Positions 51,313-64,000 of a stretch of 64,000 nt of DNA are shown here, in pieces. The notes beneath the pieces are model-generated. The model did not search any database. It had not been told where the DNA came from and saw nothing but the letters and a program-made list of their open reading frames with translations. Made by a program: the position numbers and the translations under genes. The stretch covers positions 1-64,000 of the forward strand of contig JAEUNM010000006.1 in NCBI GenBank assembly GCA_016791105.1, read 5' to 3'. Source of the DNA: Rhodocyclaceae bacterium (GTDB lineage: Bacteria > Pseudomonadota > Gammaproteobacteria > Burkholderiales > Rhodocyclaceae). Within the stretch, counting starts at the first letter, position 1; the number at the start of each line of letters is the position of its first letter.

Positions 51313-52809
51313 TCAACTATGCGTTGCGGCGGCCGGCGTTTTGCCGCGCATTCTTTGCGCGTCGCGCGCGGCGTCGGAATCGGGGTAGAAGGCTGCCAGC
51401 AGGCGTGCGTGGCGTTCGGCGCGCTCGTGGTCGGCGCGCTTGTCGCAGGCAAGCACCAGGGCCAGCAGGGCCGGCGGCACGCCCGGATGGTCCGACTTGC
51501 GGCGCAACAGCGGCAGCAACGCGGCTTCGGCATCCGCCACCAGGCCGCGCCGCGCAAAACGCATCGCAAGTGCAGTGGCGATACGGCGCGGCAACCGCGT
51601 GCCGGGTTCCACCAGCTTCATGTATTCGCGATAGGTACGCAAAATCAATTCGTCGGTGGCGGCGTCATCCTGCTTGAGCGCCATGATGCGCAGCGCCGAG
51701 TGGTGAAACTGATCGTCGCCGGGCTCGAGCTTGCAAAGGTTGTAATGGCTTTGCAGCAGATGGCGGTCGTCCGGCCGCTGTTCCACCAGACGCGCGAAGG
51801 CGCTGCGCGCTTCCGCCATGCGCATTTGCGCGACCAGCTGGTGCGCCTTGGCAATCGCCGACTGTAATTCGCGCTCGGCCTCGTCACGTTCGGCGGCCGT
51901 GACGATGGCGCTGGACGCCTGTGCGCGGTCGCGCCTATGCGCTGCCGCCAGCAGCGCGCCGCTCAGAAAACCGCCTATGTGCGCGAGGTAATTGGTCGTT
52001 CCGCCCGCGCTGTAGAGCTGCCAGGCCTCATTGGCCAGCCACAGCGGCAACAGATAAATGGCGCGGCCGCGTATGTAATCGAAATAGACGAAGGCGAAAA
52101 AGAAAAAATTGATGCGCCGCATGCCGAGCAGCACCACATACATGGCCATGACGCCGGCGATGGCGCCGGAAGCACCCAGGCAAAGCGACTGGTCGTCCGG
52201 ATGCACGGCCCAGAACAGGGTGGTCGCGGCGACGCCGGAAATCAGGTAGTACAGCGCGAAGCGCAGCGGCCCGAGCATGCGCTCGACCAGGAAAGCGACC
52301 AGGAACAGCATCACCATATTGCCCAGCAGATGGTCCGCGCTGCCGTGCAGAAACATGTGCGTCACAAACGTGAGCGGCCGGTGTTCGGCCGCGACGAAGC
52401 TATAGACGGGCGTGAACTGGCGCGCCATGAGGTGCTCGAACTGCGCCCGGTCGCGCTTCCAGCCTGCCGCCCGGTCATCGCCCGCCGGTACCAGGCCGGA
52501 TTGGATGCGCGCCTTGAAGCCGTTGTCGTGGTGCAGAACCAGTACCGCCATTGCGGGTTTCTGCACCGAATAGGCCTGGTAGCTCGCCGCGGCCGCCTGT
52601 TCGCTGCGGCTGTCGAGGAAGGCGGCGTAGGCCGGAAATTCGATGTCGGGCAAACTGCTGTTCAGATAAAACCTGAGCGCTTCGGCCTGGTAGCGCTCAT
52701 CTTTGGTCTGCACACCGAAATAGACGCAGACATTGACAAGAATGATCAGTAATGCGGCAATCGGCGGTTTGCGCCAATCCAGCCGATCGGCCATGGGGAT
52801 AAGTAACAT
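51313..52809 (-). CDS. Rhomboid intramembrane serine protease with C-terminal helical-repeat domain
   Basis: 498 residues. Catalytic Ser214 lies in LGASGAIAG and His277 in YLAHIGGFLSG; the oxyanion-side HxxxN is His160-Asn164. About six membrane segments occupy residues 145-295, with an extra N-terminal helix (15-33). A hydrophilic insert (about 35-140) separates the first helix from the core, and about 200 C-terminal residues (from 300) form predicted helical, TPR-like repeats. Substrate unknown. The start is the ATG at 52809; a second ATG is five codons later. Confidence 0.92.
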   Translation of the reverse strand: MLLIPMADRLDWRKPPIAALLIILVNVCVYFGVQTKDERYQAEALRFYLNSSLPDIEFPAYAAFLDSRSEQAAAASYQAYSVQKPAMAVLVLHHDNGFKARIQSGLVPAGDDRAAGWKRDRAQFEHLMARQFTPVYSFVAAEHRPLTFVTHMFLHGSADHLLGNMVMLFLVAFLVERMLGPLRFALYYLISGVAATTLFWAVHPDDQSLCLGASGAIAGVMAMYVVLLGMRRINFFFFAFVYFDYIRGRAIYLLPLWLANEAWQLYSAGGTTNYLAHIGGFLSGALLAAAHRRDRAQASSAIVTAAERDEAERELQSAIAKAHQLVAQMRMAEARSAFARLVEQRPDDRHLLQSHYNLCKLEPGDDQFHHSALRIMALKQDDAATDELILRTYREYMKLVEPGTRLPRRIATALAMRFARRGLVADAEAALLPLLRRKSDHPGVPPALLALVLACDKRADHERAERHARLLAAFYPDSDAARDAQRMRGKTPAAATHS

Positions 52810-53132
52810 GCCGGTATTTTCTCAGCTTAGTTGCGCCCAGTCCAGAAGGCTATATGGCACTCGCTGGTTTTCCGCCCTAGCCCGCCCGGGCAGGCCAGGG
52901 CGCTCATTTCAGCGGTGGATGAGAGTACATTGGCTGCAATGCGGCAGGGCGCCCGCGTGCCCGCGCGACAATGCCGCAAGTCTGCCCGACCGTACTGGCG
53001 GACAGCCGGCAGAACAGCGCGCCGTGCGCGAACTGCAGTTTTGTCTGTGGGCAAAATTTCGCTCCGTTGCGCCCACTGGCGGCGCACAGGATTGTTACCG
53101 GTTTGCGTCCCGACCGGTCCGGCGATTCAGGC
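52810..53132. other. Intergenic stretch before the chemosensory operon, no gene seen
   Basis: It lies upstream of the divergent rhomboid gene. Short overlapping open frames on both strands have no ribosome sites or recognised domains. The operon promoter follows at 53133. Confidence 0.5.
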
Positions 53133-53159
53133 TAAAGCTTTGCGCCTTGTTGCCGTAAT
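53133..53159 (+). promoter_or_regulatory. FliA (sigma-28) type promoter of the chemosensory operon
   Basis: TAAAGCTT (53133-53140), an 11-nt spacer and GCCGTAAT (53152-53159) closely match the flagellar sigma-28 consensus TAAAGTTT-N11-GCCGATAA, with correct spacing. The start site would fall about 45 nt before the STAS gene ATG at 53214. It would place the chemotaxis genes in the late flagellar regulon. Confidence 0.65.
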
Positions 53160-53213
53160 GCGCCCACGGACTAATTTTGGTCAAGTCGGCACTTCGCCGC
53201 CAAGGAGAATCGA

Positions 53214-53519
53214 ATGGAAGCAAATGTCGTTTATCAGGACCGCCGTGCAGTCATCCGTCTGGGTGGCCGTTTTGATTTTAACGCCCACCGCGAATTTCGC
53301 GAGGCCGCCGACGCCGCCATGGGTCGCCAGGATGTGCGCGAGGTGCATGTCGATATGAATAACGTGGTGTACCTGGACAGTTCGGCCCTGGGCATGTTGC
53401 TCATGCTGCGCGACAAGGCCAAATCGGCGCAAAAAGAACTGGCGCTCGCCAATTGCGGCGGCAACGTGCGTCAAGTGCTGGATATCGCGAATTTCACCAA
53501 GTTATTCCGCGTGGTGTGA
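53214..53519 (+). CDS. STAS-domain protein (anti-sigma-factor-antagonist type)
   Basis: 101 residues with AAGGAG upstream. Single STAS domain; the segment NVVYLDSSALGMLLMLRDKA carries the conserved Asp-Ser-Ser whose first Ser is the phosphorylation site in anti-anti-sigma factors. It leads the chemosensory operon, 63 bp before the first receptor. A kinase or phosphatase partner is not in the window, so a link between partner-switching signalling and chemotaxis is inference. Confidence 0.9.
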   Translation: MEANVVYQDRRAVIRLGGRFDFNAHREFREAADAAMGRQDVREVHVDMNNVVYLDSSALGMLLMLRDKAKSAQKELALANCGGNVRQVLDIANFTKLFRVV

Positions 53520-53582: not shown

Positions 53583-55286
53583 ATGGCCGAAATCGGCGGA
53601 AAACATGTGTGCTGGGTGCTGCCTGCGCTGACCGGCGCAACTGGCGCATTGGCGTCCGGCGTTGCAGTATGGGGCGCTTTGAGCGGTCACCCTTGGCTGG
53701 AATGGAGCGGTATTGCAGCGGCTGGCCTGGGTAGTGCGGCGATTGCCGGCGCTCTGGTGAGGGCCTGGGTGACGAGGCCTGTGGAGCACCTCACGAGCGT
53801 GCTGCGCACCATGTACCGCGACGGCGACCTGTCGCGGCGCGCCACGCCTGCCGGGGCCGGGCAGGCGCGCCAGCTTGCGGTGGCCACGAATGATCTGATC
53901 GGCAGCTTTCAAAGCATGATAGGGCGCATCGTATTCAGCGCCGGCCAGCTGGGCGCAGCGTCGGAAAAGCTGTGCGCATCGGCGCGTTCCATGAATGACT
54001 CATCGGCCCGCCAGGGGCAGGCCGCCGAAGCGACAACCCATTCCATGGACGAAATGAACCGCGGCATAGCCGAAGTGCGCGAAAACGCTCGTTACGCCGC
54101 CGACAGCGCGGCGGACGCGCGCGGGCACGCCGTGCGCGGGGCGGAAATTGCCGATCGCGCGGCGCAGGAAATCGAGCGCATCGCGCGCAATGCCAGTGCT
54201 TCGGCGCAATTGATCGAACAACTGGGCGGGCGCACCCAGGCGATCAGCGGCATATTGCAGGTGATTCATGACATTGCCGAACAGACCAATCTGCTCGCCT
54301 TGAATGCCGCAATCGAAGCGGCGCGGGCGGGCGAACAGGGGCGTGGGTTTGCCGTTGTGGCCGACGAAGTGCGCAAGCTGGCCGAGCGCACGTCCAGCGC
54401 GACAGGGGAAATTCGCAGTGTGATCGTCGCCATTCAGGACGAAACCCACAAGGCCGTGCTGGCAGTGCAGGAGGGCAGCGCCCAGGCGCATTCCGGTGCT
54501 CAGCTTGCGGCCTCCGCCGCCGACGCGCTGGAACAAATTCGTGCTGGCGCCGAAACAACCATGGCGAAAGTCGATTCCATCGCGACGACCATAGGCGAAT
54601 ACGCCGCGCGCGGTGCCGACATTGCCAATCATGTGCACGAAATCCTGCACATGGTGCAGGGCAATACCGCGAACGCGGCGCGCACCTTGTGCGAATCTGG
54701 TCAGGTCGAGCACATAGGCGCGAATATTCAGGAAGTGCGCAACGTGTTCAAACTGGGGCAGGTGGGCGAGGCTGCCCTGGCCCTGCACGAGCGTATGCCG
54801 GAGGTGGTGCAACGGGTGGCGGCATCTGTCGGGCGTGCGCTCGAAGAGGCCATGGAGCGCGGTGAAATTACTGAACACGCGCTATTCGATACGACTTACA
54901 CGCCGATCGCGAATACCTACCCGCAAAAATTTCACTCGCCCTGCGACGCGCTGGCGGACCGGCTGCTGCCGGGACTGCAGGAGCCCGTCCTGGAACAAAA
55001 TCCCATGGTGGTGTATGCCTGCGCGGGCGACATCAATGGCTATCTGCCGACGCACAACCGCCGCTTCAGTCAGCCGCTCACCGGCGACCGCGAGCGCGAT
55101 CTGGCCGGCAATCGCACCAAGCGCATATTCGATGACGCGGTATCCAAACGCGGCGCCAAGCACGAACTGCCCTTCCTGCTGCAAACCTACCGCCGCGATA
55201 CGGGCGAAGTCATGCATGACATTTCCGCGCCGATTTACGTGCGCGGCCGGCATTGGGGCGGTTTCCGCGTCGGCTACCGGGCCTGA
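53583..55286 (+). CDS. Methyl-accepting chemotaxis protein with C-terminal cytoplasmic sensor domain
   Basis: 567 residues. Two N-terminal membrane helices (about 10-32 and 38-58) leave almost no periplasmic loop. A HAMP-like region follows, then the signalling domain with the tip [19 protein letters not shown]. After the signalling domain come a short helical link and a C-terminal domain (about 440-567) with [36 protein letters not shown] and [18 protein letters not shown], a conserved PAS/Cache-like ligand module known from other bacterial receptors. Sensing is therefore probably intracellular. Ligand unknown. Confidence 0.92.
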
Positions 55287-55339: not shown

Positions 55340-56587
55340 ATGCAAACACTGAAAGGCCGGCTGCTGGTGGTGCTGGCCGTACTTGCCGGCGCCACGCTGC
55401 TTGCCAACGGCTACAGCCTGTACACGTTTTTCGATCTGGCGGGCCGTGCCGCGGCGGCACTTTCCGGTGATGGTGTGAGCGGCGCGACGGCGGCCGCCGA
55501 GTTGCAGGCCAGCGCGGCGCGCGCGACGTGGATCATGCTAGGGATGATTACCGTCGCGTCGGTAGCCGGGCTGGTGGCTTTCATGTCGCTGTGGCGTTCG
55601 CTGGACCGCATGCTGGGCGGCGAACCCGAGGTGGTCCGTGCCGCCATGCGGCGCATGGCGGGCGGCGACCTGTCGCAGGAAATTCCCGATCGTGGCGACA
55701 GCCTGCTCGGTGCCGCCGGCACCATGCAGGAAAACCTGCGCGGCATGGCCATGCGGCTCAACCTGAGCGCGGCCGACGTGCAACGCCTGGCCGGGCAGTT
55801 TGCCGACGGCACCGCGGCGGTTGCGCGCGCCACCGAAGAACAAAGCGACACGGCCGGACGCGCGGCCAATTCCATGCACGAACTGGCGTCGGCCATCGAT
55901 GGCGTGACGGGCACCGCCGGAGCGGTTGAACAACTGAGCGACAGCGGCCTGCAACATACCGATGCCGGCCGCGCCGCGGTACGCCAGATGGGGGGCGAAC
56001 TGGCCGAGGTCGAAACCATCGTGAAGGACATGGTGGGCGCCAGCGCGCAGTTTTCCGACGCAGCCGGGGCCATCACGCGCATGACGCGGCAGGTGCGGGA
56101 AATTGCCGACCAGACCAATCTGCTCGCGCTCAACGCGGCCATCGAGGCCGCGCGCGCCGGCGAACAGGGGCGCGGTTTTGCCGTGGTGGCCGACGAAGTG
56201 CGCAAATTGGCGGAAAAATCCGCGCTCGCGGCGGCCGACATAGATGGCGTGACACGCCAGCTCGCCGAGCGCGCCGGTTCGGTGGATGCCGTCGTGCAGC
56301 GCGGGCTGCAGTCGCTCGACAGCACCAGCAAACACTTGGTTTCGGTCGAGGGCGTGCTGGATCAGGCCTCGCACGCCGCGCACGAAACCGCGAACGGCAT
56401 GCGCAGCATCAGCGAAGCCGTGCGCGGCCAGGTACGCGCCAGCCATAGCGTCAATGATGCCGTCGATCGTATCGTTGCCATGGCGCAGTCCAACGCGCAC
56501 GAAGTACAACAGTCCGCCGCCCAGGCGCGCCGCCTGCAGGAACTCGCCGGCAGCCTGGCGGAAGTGGCCGGCCGCTTCCGCACCTGA
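55340..56587 (+). CDS. Methyl-accepting chemotaxis protein with short periplasmic loop
   Basis: 415 residues. Membrane helices at about 8-30 and 63-85 enclose only some 30 residues outside. A HAMP-like region (86-140) leads to the signalling domain with [19 protein letters not shown] and [19 protein letters not shown]. No ligand domain is present, so it may sense membrane state or redox, or work with a partner. AAGGA precedes the ATG, 53 bp after the first receptor. Confidence 0.92.
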
Positions 56588-56820
56588 CTTCGTCCCTGCG
56601 CGCGGCGGCTACGGTCGCGCGGTCTGGGCCGGTCTCATTGCCGGCCCATCAATTTCATTTCCCCTTTACCCGCCCCCACGGACTGCGTGGCCGGCGGAAG
56701 TTCGTGCGATCTGCACGGACATGGTGCGCGCGCCATGCCCGATTTGTGTCGCAAATTCAAGCAGCGCGCGGCGCGGCCGTAAATACACGCCAATACAGAT
56801 ATTTTCGAAAGGAATCCGAA

Positions 56821-58858: not shown

Positions 58859-58883
58859 TACGCCTGCTCAAGAAGCAGGCGTA
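58859..58883 (+). other. Perfect 10-bp stem-loop between the third receptor and cheV
   Basis: TACGCCTGCT (58859-58868) pairs with AGCAGGCGTA (58874-58883) around CAAGA, 8 bp after the receptor stop. No T tract follows. It could process or stabilise the long operon mRNA, lowering or separating expression of the downstream cytoplasmic genes. Confidence 0.5.
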
Positions 58884-58936
58884 GAGGCCGTAAAGCAACA
58901 ACGGTCGGGTTTGTGCCGGTCCCAGGAGATTAAACG

Positions 58937-59938: not shown

Positions 59939-60877
59939 ATGGATATCGCAGATACCTCCCTGCTCGAAGCGGTCGACGCGCGTACCCGGCTCGCCGGCAG
60001 CAACTGCATGGAAATCCTGCTGTTTTCGCTGGGCACGCACGAAACTTTCGGCATTAACGTGTTCAAGGTGCGCGAAGTGTGCCGCACCCCCATGATTACG
60101 CCGGCGCCCAACATGCCGGGCGGCGTGGAAGGCTTGATTTCCCTGCGCGGCAACGTCATTCCGGTCATGAATCTGGCCAAAATCATGCAGCTCGACGGCG
60201 CCGAGCGGCCTACCGCCTCGATGATGGTGACCGAATACAGCAAGCGCACGCTGGGCTTCCTGGTACATGGGGTGGACCGCATCATCCGCGTCGATTGGGA
60301 CAGGGTGCGCGCGCCCGAAGACGTGCTGTCGGGCGACCAGCATTTCATTACTGCCATTACCGAGCTGCCGGATGGCCGGCTGGTATCGATACTGGACGTG
60401 GAATCCATCCTGGCGGCCACCTTCGGCGAAGCCGTTACCGGTGAAATTCTGCCGATAGGCGGCGAGCGCGATTACAACGTGTTTTTCGTCGATGACTCTT
60501 CGGTGGCGCGCCGCAAGATCGCCGAAGTGCTGGACAAGCTGGGCGTGCGCCACAAGCACGCCGTCAATGGCGCGGAAGCCTGGACCCGGCTGCAGGCCAT
60601 GGCGGCGCATTTTTCCAATATTCAGAACTCGATGGGCGAGGAACTGGACGTAATCCTCGTCGATGCCGAAATGCCCGAAATGGACGGCTACGTACTCACC
60701 CGCAACATCAAGGCCGACCCACGCTTTGCCGGCATACCGGTGGTGATGCATTCGTCCTTGTCGTCGCAGGCCAACCGCGCCATGGGCAAAAGTGTGGGGG
60801 TTGATGCCTATGTCGCGAAATTCGACGCCGAGGTGCTCGCCGACACCTTGCGGCCGCTGCTTCGCTCCAAAGATTGA
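59939..60877 (+). CDS. cheV: CheV coupling protein (CheW-receiver), second copy
   Basis: 312 residues, colinear with the first cheV and clearly paralogous (FGINVFKVREVCRTPMITPA; GLISLRGNVIPVMNL; LTRNIKADPRFAGIPVVMHS). The receiver keeps VDDSSVAR and the phosphoacceptor Asp in LVDAEMPEMDG. The first-domain sequences differ enough to suggest different receptor preferences, which is inference. The pair arose by tandem duplication. Confidence 0.95.
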   Translation: MDIADTSLLEAVDARTRLAGSNCMEILLFSLGTHETFGINVFKVREVCRTPMITPAPNMPGGVEGLISLRGNVIPVMNLAKIMQLDGAERPTASMMVTEYSKRTLGFLVHGVDRIIRVDWDRVRAPEDVLSGDQHFITAITELPDGRLVSILDVESILAATFGEAVTGEILPIGGERDYNVFFVDDSSVARRKIAEVLDKLGVRHKHAVNGAEAWTRLQAMAAHFSNIQNSMGEELDVILVDAEMPEMDGYVLTRNIKADPRFAGIPVVMHSSLSSQANRAMGKSVGVDAYVAKFDAEVLADTLRPLLRSKD

Positions 60878-60921: not shown

Positions 60922-61320
60922 ATGGCTGACCCGAAAATGAAATTCCTGGTCGTGGATGACTTCTCGACCATGCGCCGCATCGTGCGCAACCTGCTCAAAG
61001 AGCTGGGCTTCACCAATGTCGACGAGGCCGAAGACGGCGTCGCGGCGCTGCAAAAGCTGCAGGCCGGCGGCATCGAATTCGTGGTGACGGACTGGAACAT
61101 GCCGAACATGACCGGCCTGGAACTGCTGCAGGCGATACGTGCCAATGCGCAGTTCAAACACCTGCCGGTATTGATGATTACCGCCGAGGCGAAGAAGGAA
61201 AACATCATCGCTGCGGCCCAGGCGGGTGCATCCGGCTACATCGTGAAGCCTTTCACGGCCGCCACGCTGTCGGAAAAGCTCACCAAGATTTTCGAAAAAA
61301 TGGAAAAGAAAGCCGCCTGA
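60922..61320 (+). CDS. cheY: Chemotaxis response regulator CheY
   Basis: 132 residues, single receiver. All key positions match E. coli CheY numbering: Asp12, Asp13, phosphoacceptor Asp57 ([12 protein letters not shown]), Thr87 (MITAEAKKE), Tyr106 and Lys109 (YIVKPFTA). CheY-P binds the flagellar switch. GGGAG precedes the ATG. cheZ follows 36 bp later. Confidence 0.97.
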
Positions 61321-61356: not shown

Positions 61357-62208
61357 ATGGCCAAAAAGTTGAAATTCGACGATTCCGGCGACAGCGACGA
61401 ATTGCAGGCGCTGTTCGACAATATTGCCGCCACATCCGGCCCCGCTGCCAAGCCGCGCCTGGAAGTGATAGAGCGTGCCCCGGCGGGCACCGCCGATACG
61501 GCCGATCTGCAGGATTTGTTCGACCAGACCGCCGCCGCCTATGACGACGCCCACCCGGACGCAGCGGCTGTCGGCGAACTGGACGAAGAAGGCGACGCAC
61601 ATAGCTGCGACCGCGTATTCAATCGCGTCGGGCATATGGCGCGCGCACTGCACGACACCCTGAGCCAATTGGGCTATGACCGCGCCCTGGAAGATGCCGC
61701 GCGCACCATACCGGATGCACGCGAACGCCTGTCCTACATCGGGCAACTGACCGAACAGGCGGCTTGCCGCGTGCTCAATGCCACCGACGTGGCCATCCCG
61801 CTGCAAAACGCGCTCGGGTCGGACAGCACGGCACTGACCGCGCGCTGGGATCGCTTGTACGCCAACCAGATGGGCGTGGACGAATTCAAAACCCTGGCGG
61901 CCGAAACGCGCGAATTTCTGCGCGGCGTGCCCAAGCGCGCGCAGGACACCAGCACGCAACTGCACGAAATCATGATGGCGCAGGACTTTCAGGATTTGAC
62001 GGGCCAGGTCATCAAAAAAATCGTCGAACTTGCGCAGCAGCTGGAAACCGGGCTATTGCAGGTGCTCATCGAAGCGATGCCGGCCGACAAACGGCCGGAA
62101 GCGCCGACCGGTTTGCTCAACGGTCCGGTCATCAACTCGGCCGGCCGCACCGACGTGGTGACCAGCCAGGAACAGGTGGACGATCTGTTGGAAAGCCTGG
62201 GTTTCTAG
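61357..62208 (+). CDS. cheZ: CheY-P phosphatase CheZ
   Basis: 283 residues, longer than the E. coli protein (about 214). The catalytic helix has MAQDFQDLTGQVIKKI, with Asp213 and Gln217 at the positions of E. coli Asp143/Gln147. The C-terminal CheY-docking peptide is QVDDLLESLGF. The N-terminal extension of about 70 residues contains two similar short motifs, DELQALFDNI and DLQDLFDQT. AGGAGG precedes the ATG. Confidence 0.95.
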   Translation: MAKKLKFDDSGDSDELQALFDNIAATSGPAAKPRLEVIERAPAGTADTADLQDLFDQTAAAYDDAHPDAAAVGELDEEGDAHSCDRVFNRVGHMARALHDTLSQLGYDRALEDAARTIPDARERLSYIGQLTEQAACRVLNATDVAIPLQNALGSDSTALTARWDRLYANQMGVDEFKTLAAETREFLRGVPKRAQDTSTQLHEIMMAQDFQDLTGQVIKKIVELAQQLETGLLQVLIEAMPADKRPEAPTGLLNGPVINSAGRTDVVTSQEQVDDLLESLGF

Positions 62209-62268: not shown

Positions 62269-64000
62269 ATGAGCGATTTCGCAGGTATGGACGATCTGTT
62301 GCAAGACTTTCTGGTCGAAGCCAACGATCTTCTGAGCGGTGTGGATTTCAAGCTGGTCGATCTGGAGCGCGCCCCGGGCGACCGCGGCCTGCTCAACGAC
62401 ATATTCCGCGGCTTCCATACCATCAAGGGCGGGGCGGGCTTCCTGAATGCGGCGGAACTGGTGAACCTTTGCCACCTCACGGAAAGCCTGTTCGACAAGC
62501 TGCGCAACATGGAACTGCACCTGAGCCCGCCGCTCATGGACGTCATTCTGGCGGCGACGGCGGCGGTGCGGGACATGTTCGGGCACCTGGAGCGCGGTGC
62601 GCAGCCGCCGGCGGCCGAGGCAGACATTATCCATCGGCTGCAGGCCGCCTTGCGCGGCGAAGCGCTGGAGGCGGCCCCGGCTCACGTCGCGGCAGTGCCT
62701 GCTGCAGCGCCTGCCGCAGTCCCTGCCGCACCTGCGGCGGTCCCTGCAGCCGGCGAACCGGATTGGGAATTGCTGCATCGTGCCGTCACCGGCGTGGTGC
62801 CGCAGGCCGCGCCCAGCATGCCCCCGGAAGCGCAGCGCGCAGCGAATCAGCCTGCCGACCCGGCTGCGCATCCATTCGGCCGCCGCGCGTCCGACCATCC
62901 CGGCTTCAGCGGCCCGAACGGCCGCCGCGACCTCGAACGCGGTCGCGATACTTCCATCCGCGTCGATACTTCGCGGCTGGACCAGGTGCTGAATCTGTCC
63001 GGTGAAATCGGCCTCACGAAAAACCGCCTCACCGCGCTGCGTGCCGATATTTTGAACGGCCGCTCCGATACCGAAACCATGCACGCGCTGGACGTTGCGG
63101 TAAGCCAGCTCGATCTGCTGGTGTCCGACCTCCAGAACGCGGTCATGAAAACGCGCATGCAGCCCATAGGCCGCCTGTTCCAGAAATATCCGCGCATTGC
63201 GCGTGATCTGGCGCGCAGTCTGGGCAAGGACGTGGAACTCGATCTGGCCGGCGAAGATACCGAAATCGACAAGACCATGATCGAGGACTTGTCCGACCCC
63301 ATCATCCACCTCATACGCAATGCCATAGACCATGGCGTGGAGCCGTCTTCGGAGCGGCTGGGGCTGGGCAAGCCGGAAAAATCCCTGGTGCGGCTGGAAG
63401 CCCGCCAGGAAGGCGATCACATCGTAATCATCGTGGCCGACGACGGCCGCGGCATGAACCCGGAAAAGCTGCGCGCCAAGGCGCTGGAAAAAGGCGTCAT
63501 TACCGATGAAGAAGCGAATACGCTGGATGAGCGCTCCAGCCTCAACCTGGTTTTTCTGCCCGGCTTTTCGACTGCAGACAAGGTGTCCGACGTATCCGGG
63601 CGCGGCGTCGGCATGGACGTTGTGCGCACCAATATCCAGAAACTGAACGGCACCATAGATATCCGCTCGACAGTGGGCAAAGGCACCACCTTCATGATAT
63701 CGCTGCCGCTCACGCTGGCCATTTTGCCCGTGCTGCTGGTGAAACTGGGTGACCAGCCGTTCGCGGTACCGCTTTCGATGGTGCGCGAAATATTGCCCAT
63801 AGAGCCGGCCGGGGTACAGGAAATCGGCGGCCGCGCCACCATGGTGGTGCGCGGCGAAGTGCTGCCGGTGCTGCCGCTGCCCTATCTGCTGGGCTGGCCG
63901 CCCAGCCAGAACCCCGAATATGGCGTGCTCATGCAGACCGCCGAACACACTTTCATCCTGGCCATTGATAGTTTTGCCGGGCGCGAAGATGCCGTCATCA
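62269..64000 (+). CDS. cheA: Chemotaxis histidine kinase CheA, 3' end outside the window
   Basis: 577 residues are visible from the ATG at 62269 (GGAGA upstream); no stop before the window ends. The Hpt domain has phosphorylated His50 in FHTIKGGAGF. A low-complexity Ala/Pro linker (about 110-225) replaces a clear CheY-binding P2 domain. The dimerisation helices follow, then the ATPase with N box HLIRNAIDHGVEP, G1 DDGRGMN and G2 SGRGVGMDVV, and the start of the CheW-like regulatory domain. It autophosphorylates and feeds CheY and the CheV receivers. Confidence 0.96.
   Translation, partial: MSDFAGMDDLLQDFLVEANDLLSGVDFKLVDLERAPGDRGLLNDIFRGFHTIKGGAGFLNAAELVNLCHLTESLFDKLRNMELHLSPPLMDVILAATAAVRDMFGHLERGAQPPAAEADIIHRLQAALRGEALEAAPAHVAAVPAAAPAAVPAAPAAVPAAGEPDWELLHRAVTGVVPQAAPSMPPEAQRAANQPADPAAHPFGRRASDHPGFSGPNGRRDLERGRDTSIRVDTSRLDQVLNLSGEIGLTKNRLTALRADILNGRSDTETMHALDVAVSQLDLLVSDLQNAVMKTRMQPIGRLFQKYPRIARDLARSLGKDVELDLAGEDTEIDKTMIEDLSDPIIHLIRNAIDHGVEPSSERLGLGKPEKSLVRLEARQEGDHIVIIVADDGRGMNPEKLRAKALEKGVITDEEANTLDERSSLNLVFLPGFSTADKVSDVSGRGVGMDVVRTNIQKLNGTIDIRSTVGKGTTFMISLPLTLAILPVLLVKLGDQPFAVPLSMVREILPIEPAGVQEIGGRATMVVRGEVLPVLPLPYLLGWPPSQNPEYGVLMQTAEHTFILAIDSFAGREDAVI

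Follow-up and report, generated by a model that had tools for sequence, protein, structure and literature searches.

In the window, which is the whole 64,000-nt stretch of Rhodocyclaceae DNA analysed here, the last genes form a chemosensory operon headed by a STAS gene. The operon and its predicted promoters are laid out as follows.

53133–53159, + strand: P1, sigma-28 (FliA)-type promoter predicted from sequence, TAAAGCTT-N11-GCCGTAAT
53214–53519, + strand: STAS-domain protein of the anti-sigma factor antagonist superfamily, HsbA-like (Pfam STAS, TIGR00377)
53583–55286, + strand: methyl-accepting chemotaxis protein 1, MCP1 (Pfam MCPsignal)
55340–56587, + strand: methyl-accepting chemotaxis protein 2, MCP2 (Pfam MCPsignal)
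56757–56782, + strand: P2, predicted sigma-28-type promoter, exact match, TCAAG-N14-GCCGTAA
56821–58851, + strand: methyl-accepting chemotaxis protein 3, MCP3, HAMP and MCP signal domains (Pfam)
58868–58893, + strand: P3, predicted sigma-28-type promoter before cheV1, exact match, TCAAG-N14-GCCGTAA
58937–59902, + strand: CheV1, CheW and receiver domains (Pfam)
59939–60877, + strand: CheV2, CheW and receiver domains (Pfam)
60922–61320, + strand: CheY, above the curated NCBIfam CheY cut-off
61357–62208, + strand: CheZ phosphatase (Pfam, NCBIfam)
62269–63999, + strand: CheA kinase, incomplete at the window end (Pfam)

The cheA gene extends to position 64164 of the contig (C26), and it is followed by two small genes of 116 and 105 residues (C26 64260–64977, L061:15260–15977), which are found in the same place in the Methyloversatilis loci L161 and L162. 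For MCP3, the start codon ATG 56821 was chosen over the listed TTG 56638. CheA, CheY and CheZ, the combination used here to recognise flagellar chemotaxis, are encoded together, and the operon is without its own cheW, cheR and cheB. On the upstream side, the STAS gene shares a 419-nt intergenic region with a divergent rhomboid-family gene (51313–52794).

The initial annotation had described FliA-type halves with exact spacing about 55 bp before the first gene. Direct reading confirmed both halves, TAAAGCTT at 53133–53140 and GCCGTAAT at 53152–53159, separated by N11; the -35 core is of TAAAG/TCAAG type, the -10 core is GCCGATAA-like, and the 14 nt between the cores match the spacing of the Escherichia coli tar (TAAAGTTTCCCCCCTCCTTGCCGATAAC) and tsr promoters, as given in Table 2 of PMC4183435. 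The gap from P1 to the STAS start codon (ATG 53214, preceded by AAGGAGA) is 54 nt. P2 is located 38 nt upstream of the MCP3 start codon, and P3 sits 43 nt before cheV1. The pattern TMAAG-N14-GCCGWWA has three exact matches in the window, compared to 0.07 expected, and none of the 100 shuffled controls contained three. All three are on the + strand within the STAS-cheA operon, before the STAS gene, the third receptor gene and cheV1, respectively. This chance estimate rests on the window shuffles, as a 5 Mb Markov simulation gave 0 exact sites, too few for use. No sigma-70-like site was seen in 52700–53300, and no sigma-54-like site (TGGCACG-N4-TTGCW, at most two mismatches) was seen near P1. 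P1 is supported as a FliA-type promoter of the chemosensory operon; as a refinement, the operon has three such promoters, of which the one preceding cheV1 is conserved.

The STAS protein is matched in 106 of 199 family genomes. We compared gene order in stretches from 40 of the STAS-bearing genomes, several of which end early. On the same strand as the STAS gene, these 40 loci encode CheB (39), CheV1 (33), CheZ (30), CheA2 (30), FlhB and FlhA (19 each), and FliA, MotC and MotD (18 each); FlhB was not found on that strand in 16 of the 35 loci longer than 14 kb. Genes of the relatives were labelled via BLAST to genes of our own genome, where the labels FlhD, FlhC, MotA, MotB, MotC, CheR, CheD, CheB, PPX, FlhA, FlhB, FlhF, FlhG and PilG are presumed identities, assigned by eye on the basis of gene order and of how the proteins begin rather than by a profile. 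In most relatives cheB directly precedes the STAS gene, and in Rhodocyclales the block often lies between cheB and flhBA-flhFG-fliA-motCD. The Methyloversatilis discipulorum locus L161 reads cheD-cheB-STAS-MCP-MCP-MCP-cheV-cheV-cheY-cheZ-cheA-two small genes-flhB, the arrangement of the window operon with the flanking genes still joined to it on either side; the Dechloromonas loci L207 and L209 are further named examples of the block inside a flagellar cluster. Some relative loci carry other genes after the STAS gene or after CheA2, and among 80 named loci with CheZ, 35 had a STAS match at the threshold used. Across the relatives (L161–L240, L092–L131), the cheV-cheV-cheY-cheZ-cheA part is nearly constant, while STAS and cheV1 enclose anything from no receptor gene to three, and these receptors differ in kind as well. 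The block is associated with flagellar genes in relatives, but the two are not adjacent in this genome. Most simply, the compared gene orders suggest that the window operon once belonged to the flagellar cluster and was severed from it on either side.

P1 and P3 differ in their conservation. For the STAS gene, 300 nt upstream were compared at 70 loci, representing 66 distinct genomes of the 106 matched. A P1-like site within one mismatch is present in 8 of the 66 upstreams, our own included: five are exact (our own, G075, G074, G087 and G028), all 30–55 nt from the start codon, and three have one mismatch (G012, G065 and G145); the other 58 have at least two. For cheV1, 250 nt upstream were compared in 107 distinct upstreams taken from the 40 and 80 loci, excluding our own genome and keeping a few near-identical genomes. 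Here 44 of 107 have a site with at most one mismatch (27 exact, 17 with one), and 63 have more. The cheV1 site of G001, a genome of the same genus, is exact and at the same distance, with a differing 14-nt spacer. Elsewhere in the block, sites within one mismatch are found before cheV2 in 0/108, cheY in 0/104, cheZ in 1/102 and cheA2 in 0/106. Judged from these upstreams, P3 before cheV1 is the predicted conserved late-class promoter of the block, and P1 is lineage-restricted and patchy in evolution, since it is found within one mismatch in just 8 of 66.

These counts bear on the reading that the main FliA control is exerted at P3, with P1 and P2 being recent minor additions made as the STAS and receptor end left cheB. 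We consider the odds of it to be about even. It is favoured by the 44/107 at cheV1 against 8/66 at the STAS gene, by the position of cheB directly before STAS in most relatives, and by G087 (L072/L206), where no cheB was found upstream and the site before STAS is exact. Against it, G075, G074 and G028 keep an exact STAS site despite an upstream cheB, which indicates that separation is not required.

Whichever site dominates, the output of the operon could be something other than the flagellar motor, for example c-di-GMP, even if its expression depends on FliA. Besides the ChpA-type locus (C11), two more CheA loci occur in the genome, C59 and C73; C59 reads flhDC-motAB-MCP-cheY-cheA-cheW-MCP-cheR-cheD-cheB and has a PPX-like gene at its end, most of these names being assigned by eye. 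Outside the operon, CheW-domain loci are found at C59, C73, C77 and C11. The additional kinase loci, the missing cheW, cheR and cheB, and the many c-di-GMP and HDOD genes behind genome-wide sites would fit such an output. However, CheY and CheZ of the operon are above NCBIfam cut-offs, its CheZ is the only one found in the genome, and relatives carry the block within their flagellar cluster. The co-occurrence across the family points the same way. FliA is above cut-off in 176 of 199 family genomes; CheZ is present in 166 of these 176, whereas 22 of the 23 FliA-negative genomes lack it (Fisher p ∼1e-20). CheZ was called at E <1e-10, giving 167 genomes; a threshold of 1e-3 gave 171 matches, of which the weak ones in G062, G101, G149 and G161 were excluded. 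The lone FliA-negative genome with CheZ is G001, whose assembly of 1240 contigs yielded no FliA and which also has the cheV1 site. The STAS gene is present in four FliA-negative genomes (G007, G067, G070 and G113). On balance, an output other than the motor is unlikely.

To place the motif in its genomic context, we classified its exact matches across the genome (G000; 5.13 Mb, 147 contigs). The raw count, 35 versus 29 for a reversed-pattern control, shows little excess and is thus uninformative; it is the placement that is informative. Among the 35 motif sites (30 from search loci and 5 from fetched stretches), 33 are outside genes, each pointing towards the gene that follows, and 28 of the 35 have a same-strand gene starting no more than 150 nt downstream. 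One of the 29 control sites could not be classified. Of the other 28, 27 are inside genes and one is intergenic, and no control site outside genes has a same-strand gene starting within the next 150 nt. The differences have Fisher p values of ∼2e-14 (intergenic) and ∼1e-11 (within 150 nt upstream). The TAA stop in the motif somewhat disfavours coding DNA, a bias that the reversed control does not share, but the orientation test is unaffected by it. Genes were called with a home-made caller trained on 13 window genes, so errors are possible in small genes and in the choice of start codons. The possibility that the letters of P1 are accidental and that the operon is read from another promoter, although compatible with the near-control genome count and the few orthologous STAS upstreams within one mismatch, is very improbable and was rejected on the placement statistics and shuffles, together with the three same-strand sites in one operon, the lack of sigma-70-like or sigma-54-like sites in the regions searched around P1, and the narrow 30–55-nt placement of the exact orthologous sites.

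The genes behind the motif include known late flagellar functions. A fliA gene is encoded on C64 (5338–6000; 285.5 bits versus a cut-off of 189.6 in the profile search), next to flhB-flhA-flhF-flhG and a motC-like gene, and flgM and fliC are also present. Exact sites precede flgM, the motB-type gene motD, cheW, MCPs, MCP-like sensors, cheV1 and the STAS gene. The fliC upstream carries TAAAGCTTGCTCCCGCCGCACCGTAA, with one mismatch, at 88 nt, its first eight letters being identical to those of P1, and the motA upstream has a site with one mismatch at 36 nt; no site within two mismatches was found upstream of flgK or flgL. The same motif recurs at late genes and its sigma factor is encoded. A type IV pilus output was rejected, since all matches upstream of pilG and chpA (C11) have at least four mismatches.

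Exact sites were also found before five HDOD genes and before GGDEF, EAL and HD-GYP-type genes. Of the 13 HDOD-domain genes, 5 (on C59, C36, C141, C54 and C17; loci L258, L260, L261, L263 and L267) have such a site 8–61 nt upstream, which suggests that the late flagellar class of this genome takes in HDOD signalling proteins. Seemingly unrelated genes behind sites encode a subtilase, a TonB receptor, a carbonic anhydrase, a pilin-like protein and a DUF4347 giant protein. The last is a very large gene of DUF4347/Ig-like giant-surface-protein type (L040; C145:3000–14000, minus strand), with an exact site 49 nt upstream.

Taken together, P1 is very probably a FliA-dependent late promoter of an operon that serves the flagellar motor and belongs to a block displaced from the flagellar supercluster. 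The computed basis comprises the motif, the placement statistics, the presence of fliA, flgM and fliC, synteny, conservation and the single CheZ. The assignment of this chemotaxis set to the flagellar late class rather than to a pilus system, as first proposed, is upheld by these flagellar genes, by the sites at late genes and by the place of the block in relatives. We infer that FliA transcribes from the predicted sites, that the operon genes form one transcript, and that the operon CheY and CheZ act on the flagellar motor. After completion of the hook and export of FlgM, RNA polymerase with FliA would initiate at P1 and produce a STAS-MCP-MCP-MCP-cheV-cheV-cheY-cheZ-cheA transcript serving the motor; the internal FliA promoters before MCP3 and cheV1 would act as re-starts, and that of cheV1 would be the ancestral one. 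The supercluster order in relatives is cheB-STAS-...-cheA-flhB-flhA-flhF-flhG-fliA-motC-motD, and in this genome the operon would have been separated from both neighbours.

As a late flagellar chemotaxis operon, the locus is well supported, ordinary and largely expected. In the E. coli FliA regulon (tar-tap-cheRBYZ, motAB-cheAW and tsr), as described in PMC4183435, chemotaxis genes likewise stand behind sigma-28, with TAAAG and GCCG halves and spacing as here. The FlhD- and FlhC-like genes on C59, which we take to be such by eye, are a further likeness to the E. coli system. Different from E. coli, three FliA-type sites are found in one operon, which contains two cheV genes along with a second cheA and is headed by a STAS gene. 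In Laribacter hongkongensis, clusters CA and CC have the same gene set and order, cheV-cheV-cheY-cheZ-cheA, and more than one CheA is present as in this genome; the available text of PMC3180692 mentions no STAS gene or promoter for these blocks and reports FlhDC to be absent. A literature search, narrow in reach, returned no title in which this Rhodocyclales block was assigned a FliA promoter.

The STAS protein itself may add a regulatory layer. It is above the cut-off of TIGR00377 (anti-sigma factor antagonist), and its nearest solved chains are TM1442 and SpoIIAA-type antagonists. Its DSS motif begins at residue 55, so that the first serine is Ser56, which is a serine in all 66 orthologues; the protein combines a STAS domain with a candidate phosphorylatable serine, as expected of the HsbA type. 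As described in the available parts of PMC5085249 and PMC6482189, Pseudomonas aeruginosa HsbA of the HsbA/HsbR/HptB switch is a STAS protein encoded among flagellar and chemotaxis genes, as here; it is phosphorylated on Ser56, and in its unphosphorylated form it binds FlgM and frees FliA. The phosphorylatable serine is thus at number 56 in both proteins (PMC5085249), the HsbA likeness being drawn from the published description. In 6 of the 40 relative loci, a gene of 525–589 residues directly follows STAS. Eight post-STAS proteins were scanned, six from these loci and two from named loci: SpoIIE was found in eight, a receiver in seven, HATPase_c_2 in six (counting L131, just below its cut-off) and all three domains in five. 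Such receiver-SpoIIE-ATPase proteins adjoin STAS in some relatives, which may resemble the P. aeruginosa linkage, whereas here the 564-residue protein is unlinked to STAS, on C33 (L243:961–2655); it is 35% identical to the L131 protein over its length and is a candidate HsbR-like partner.

By analogy, the FlgM binding of HsbA, Ser56 and the C33 protein make a FliA-HsbA-FlgM feedback plausible, and flgM itself is behind a FliA-type site in this genome. In this tentative and rather doubtful scheme, the STAS protein would titrate FlgM, FliA would drive its own release, and phosphorylation of Ser56 by an HsbR-like kinase/phosphatase would be the gate.

The findings assign one of the four chemosensory kinase loci of this genome to the late flagellar genes, and they show a regulon, marked by one sigma-28 motif, in which chemotaxis, c-di-GMP and HDOD genes are abundant. 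The STAS protein points to an anti-anti-sigma link from a chemotaxis operon to FlgM outside Pseudomonas; if true, positive feedback on FliA would be built into a Rhodocyclales chemotaxis operon.
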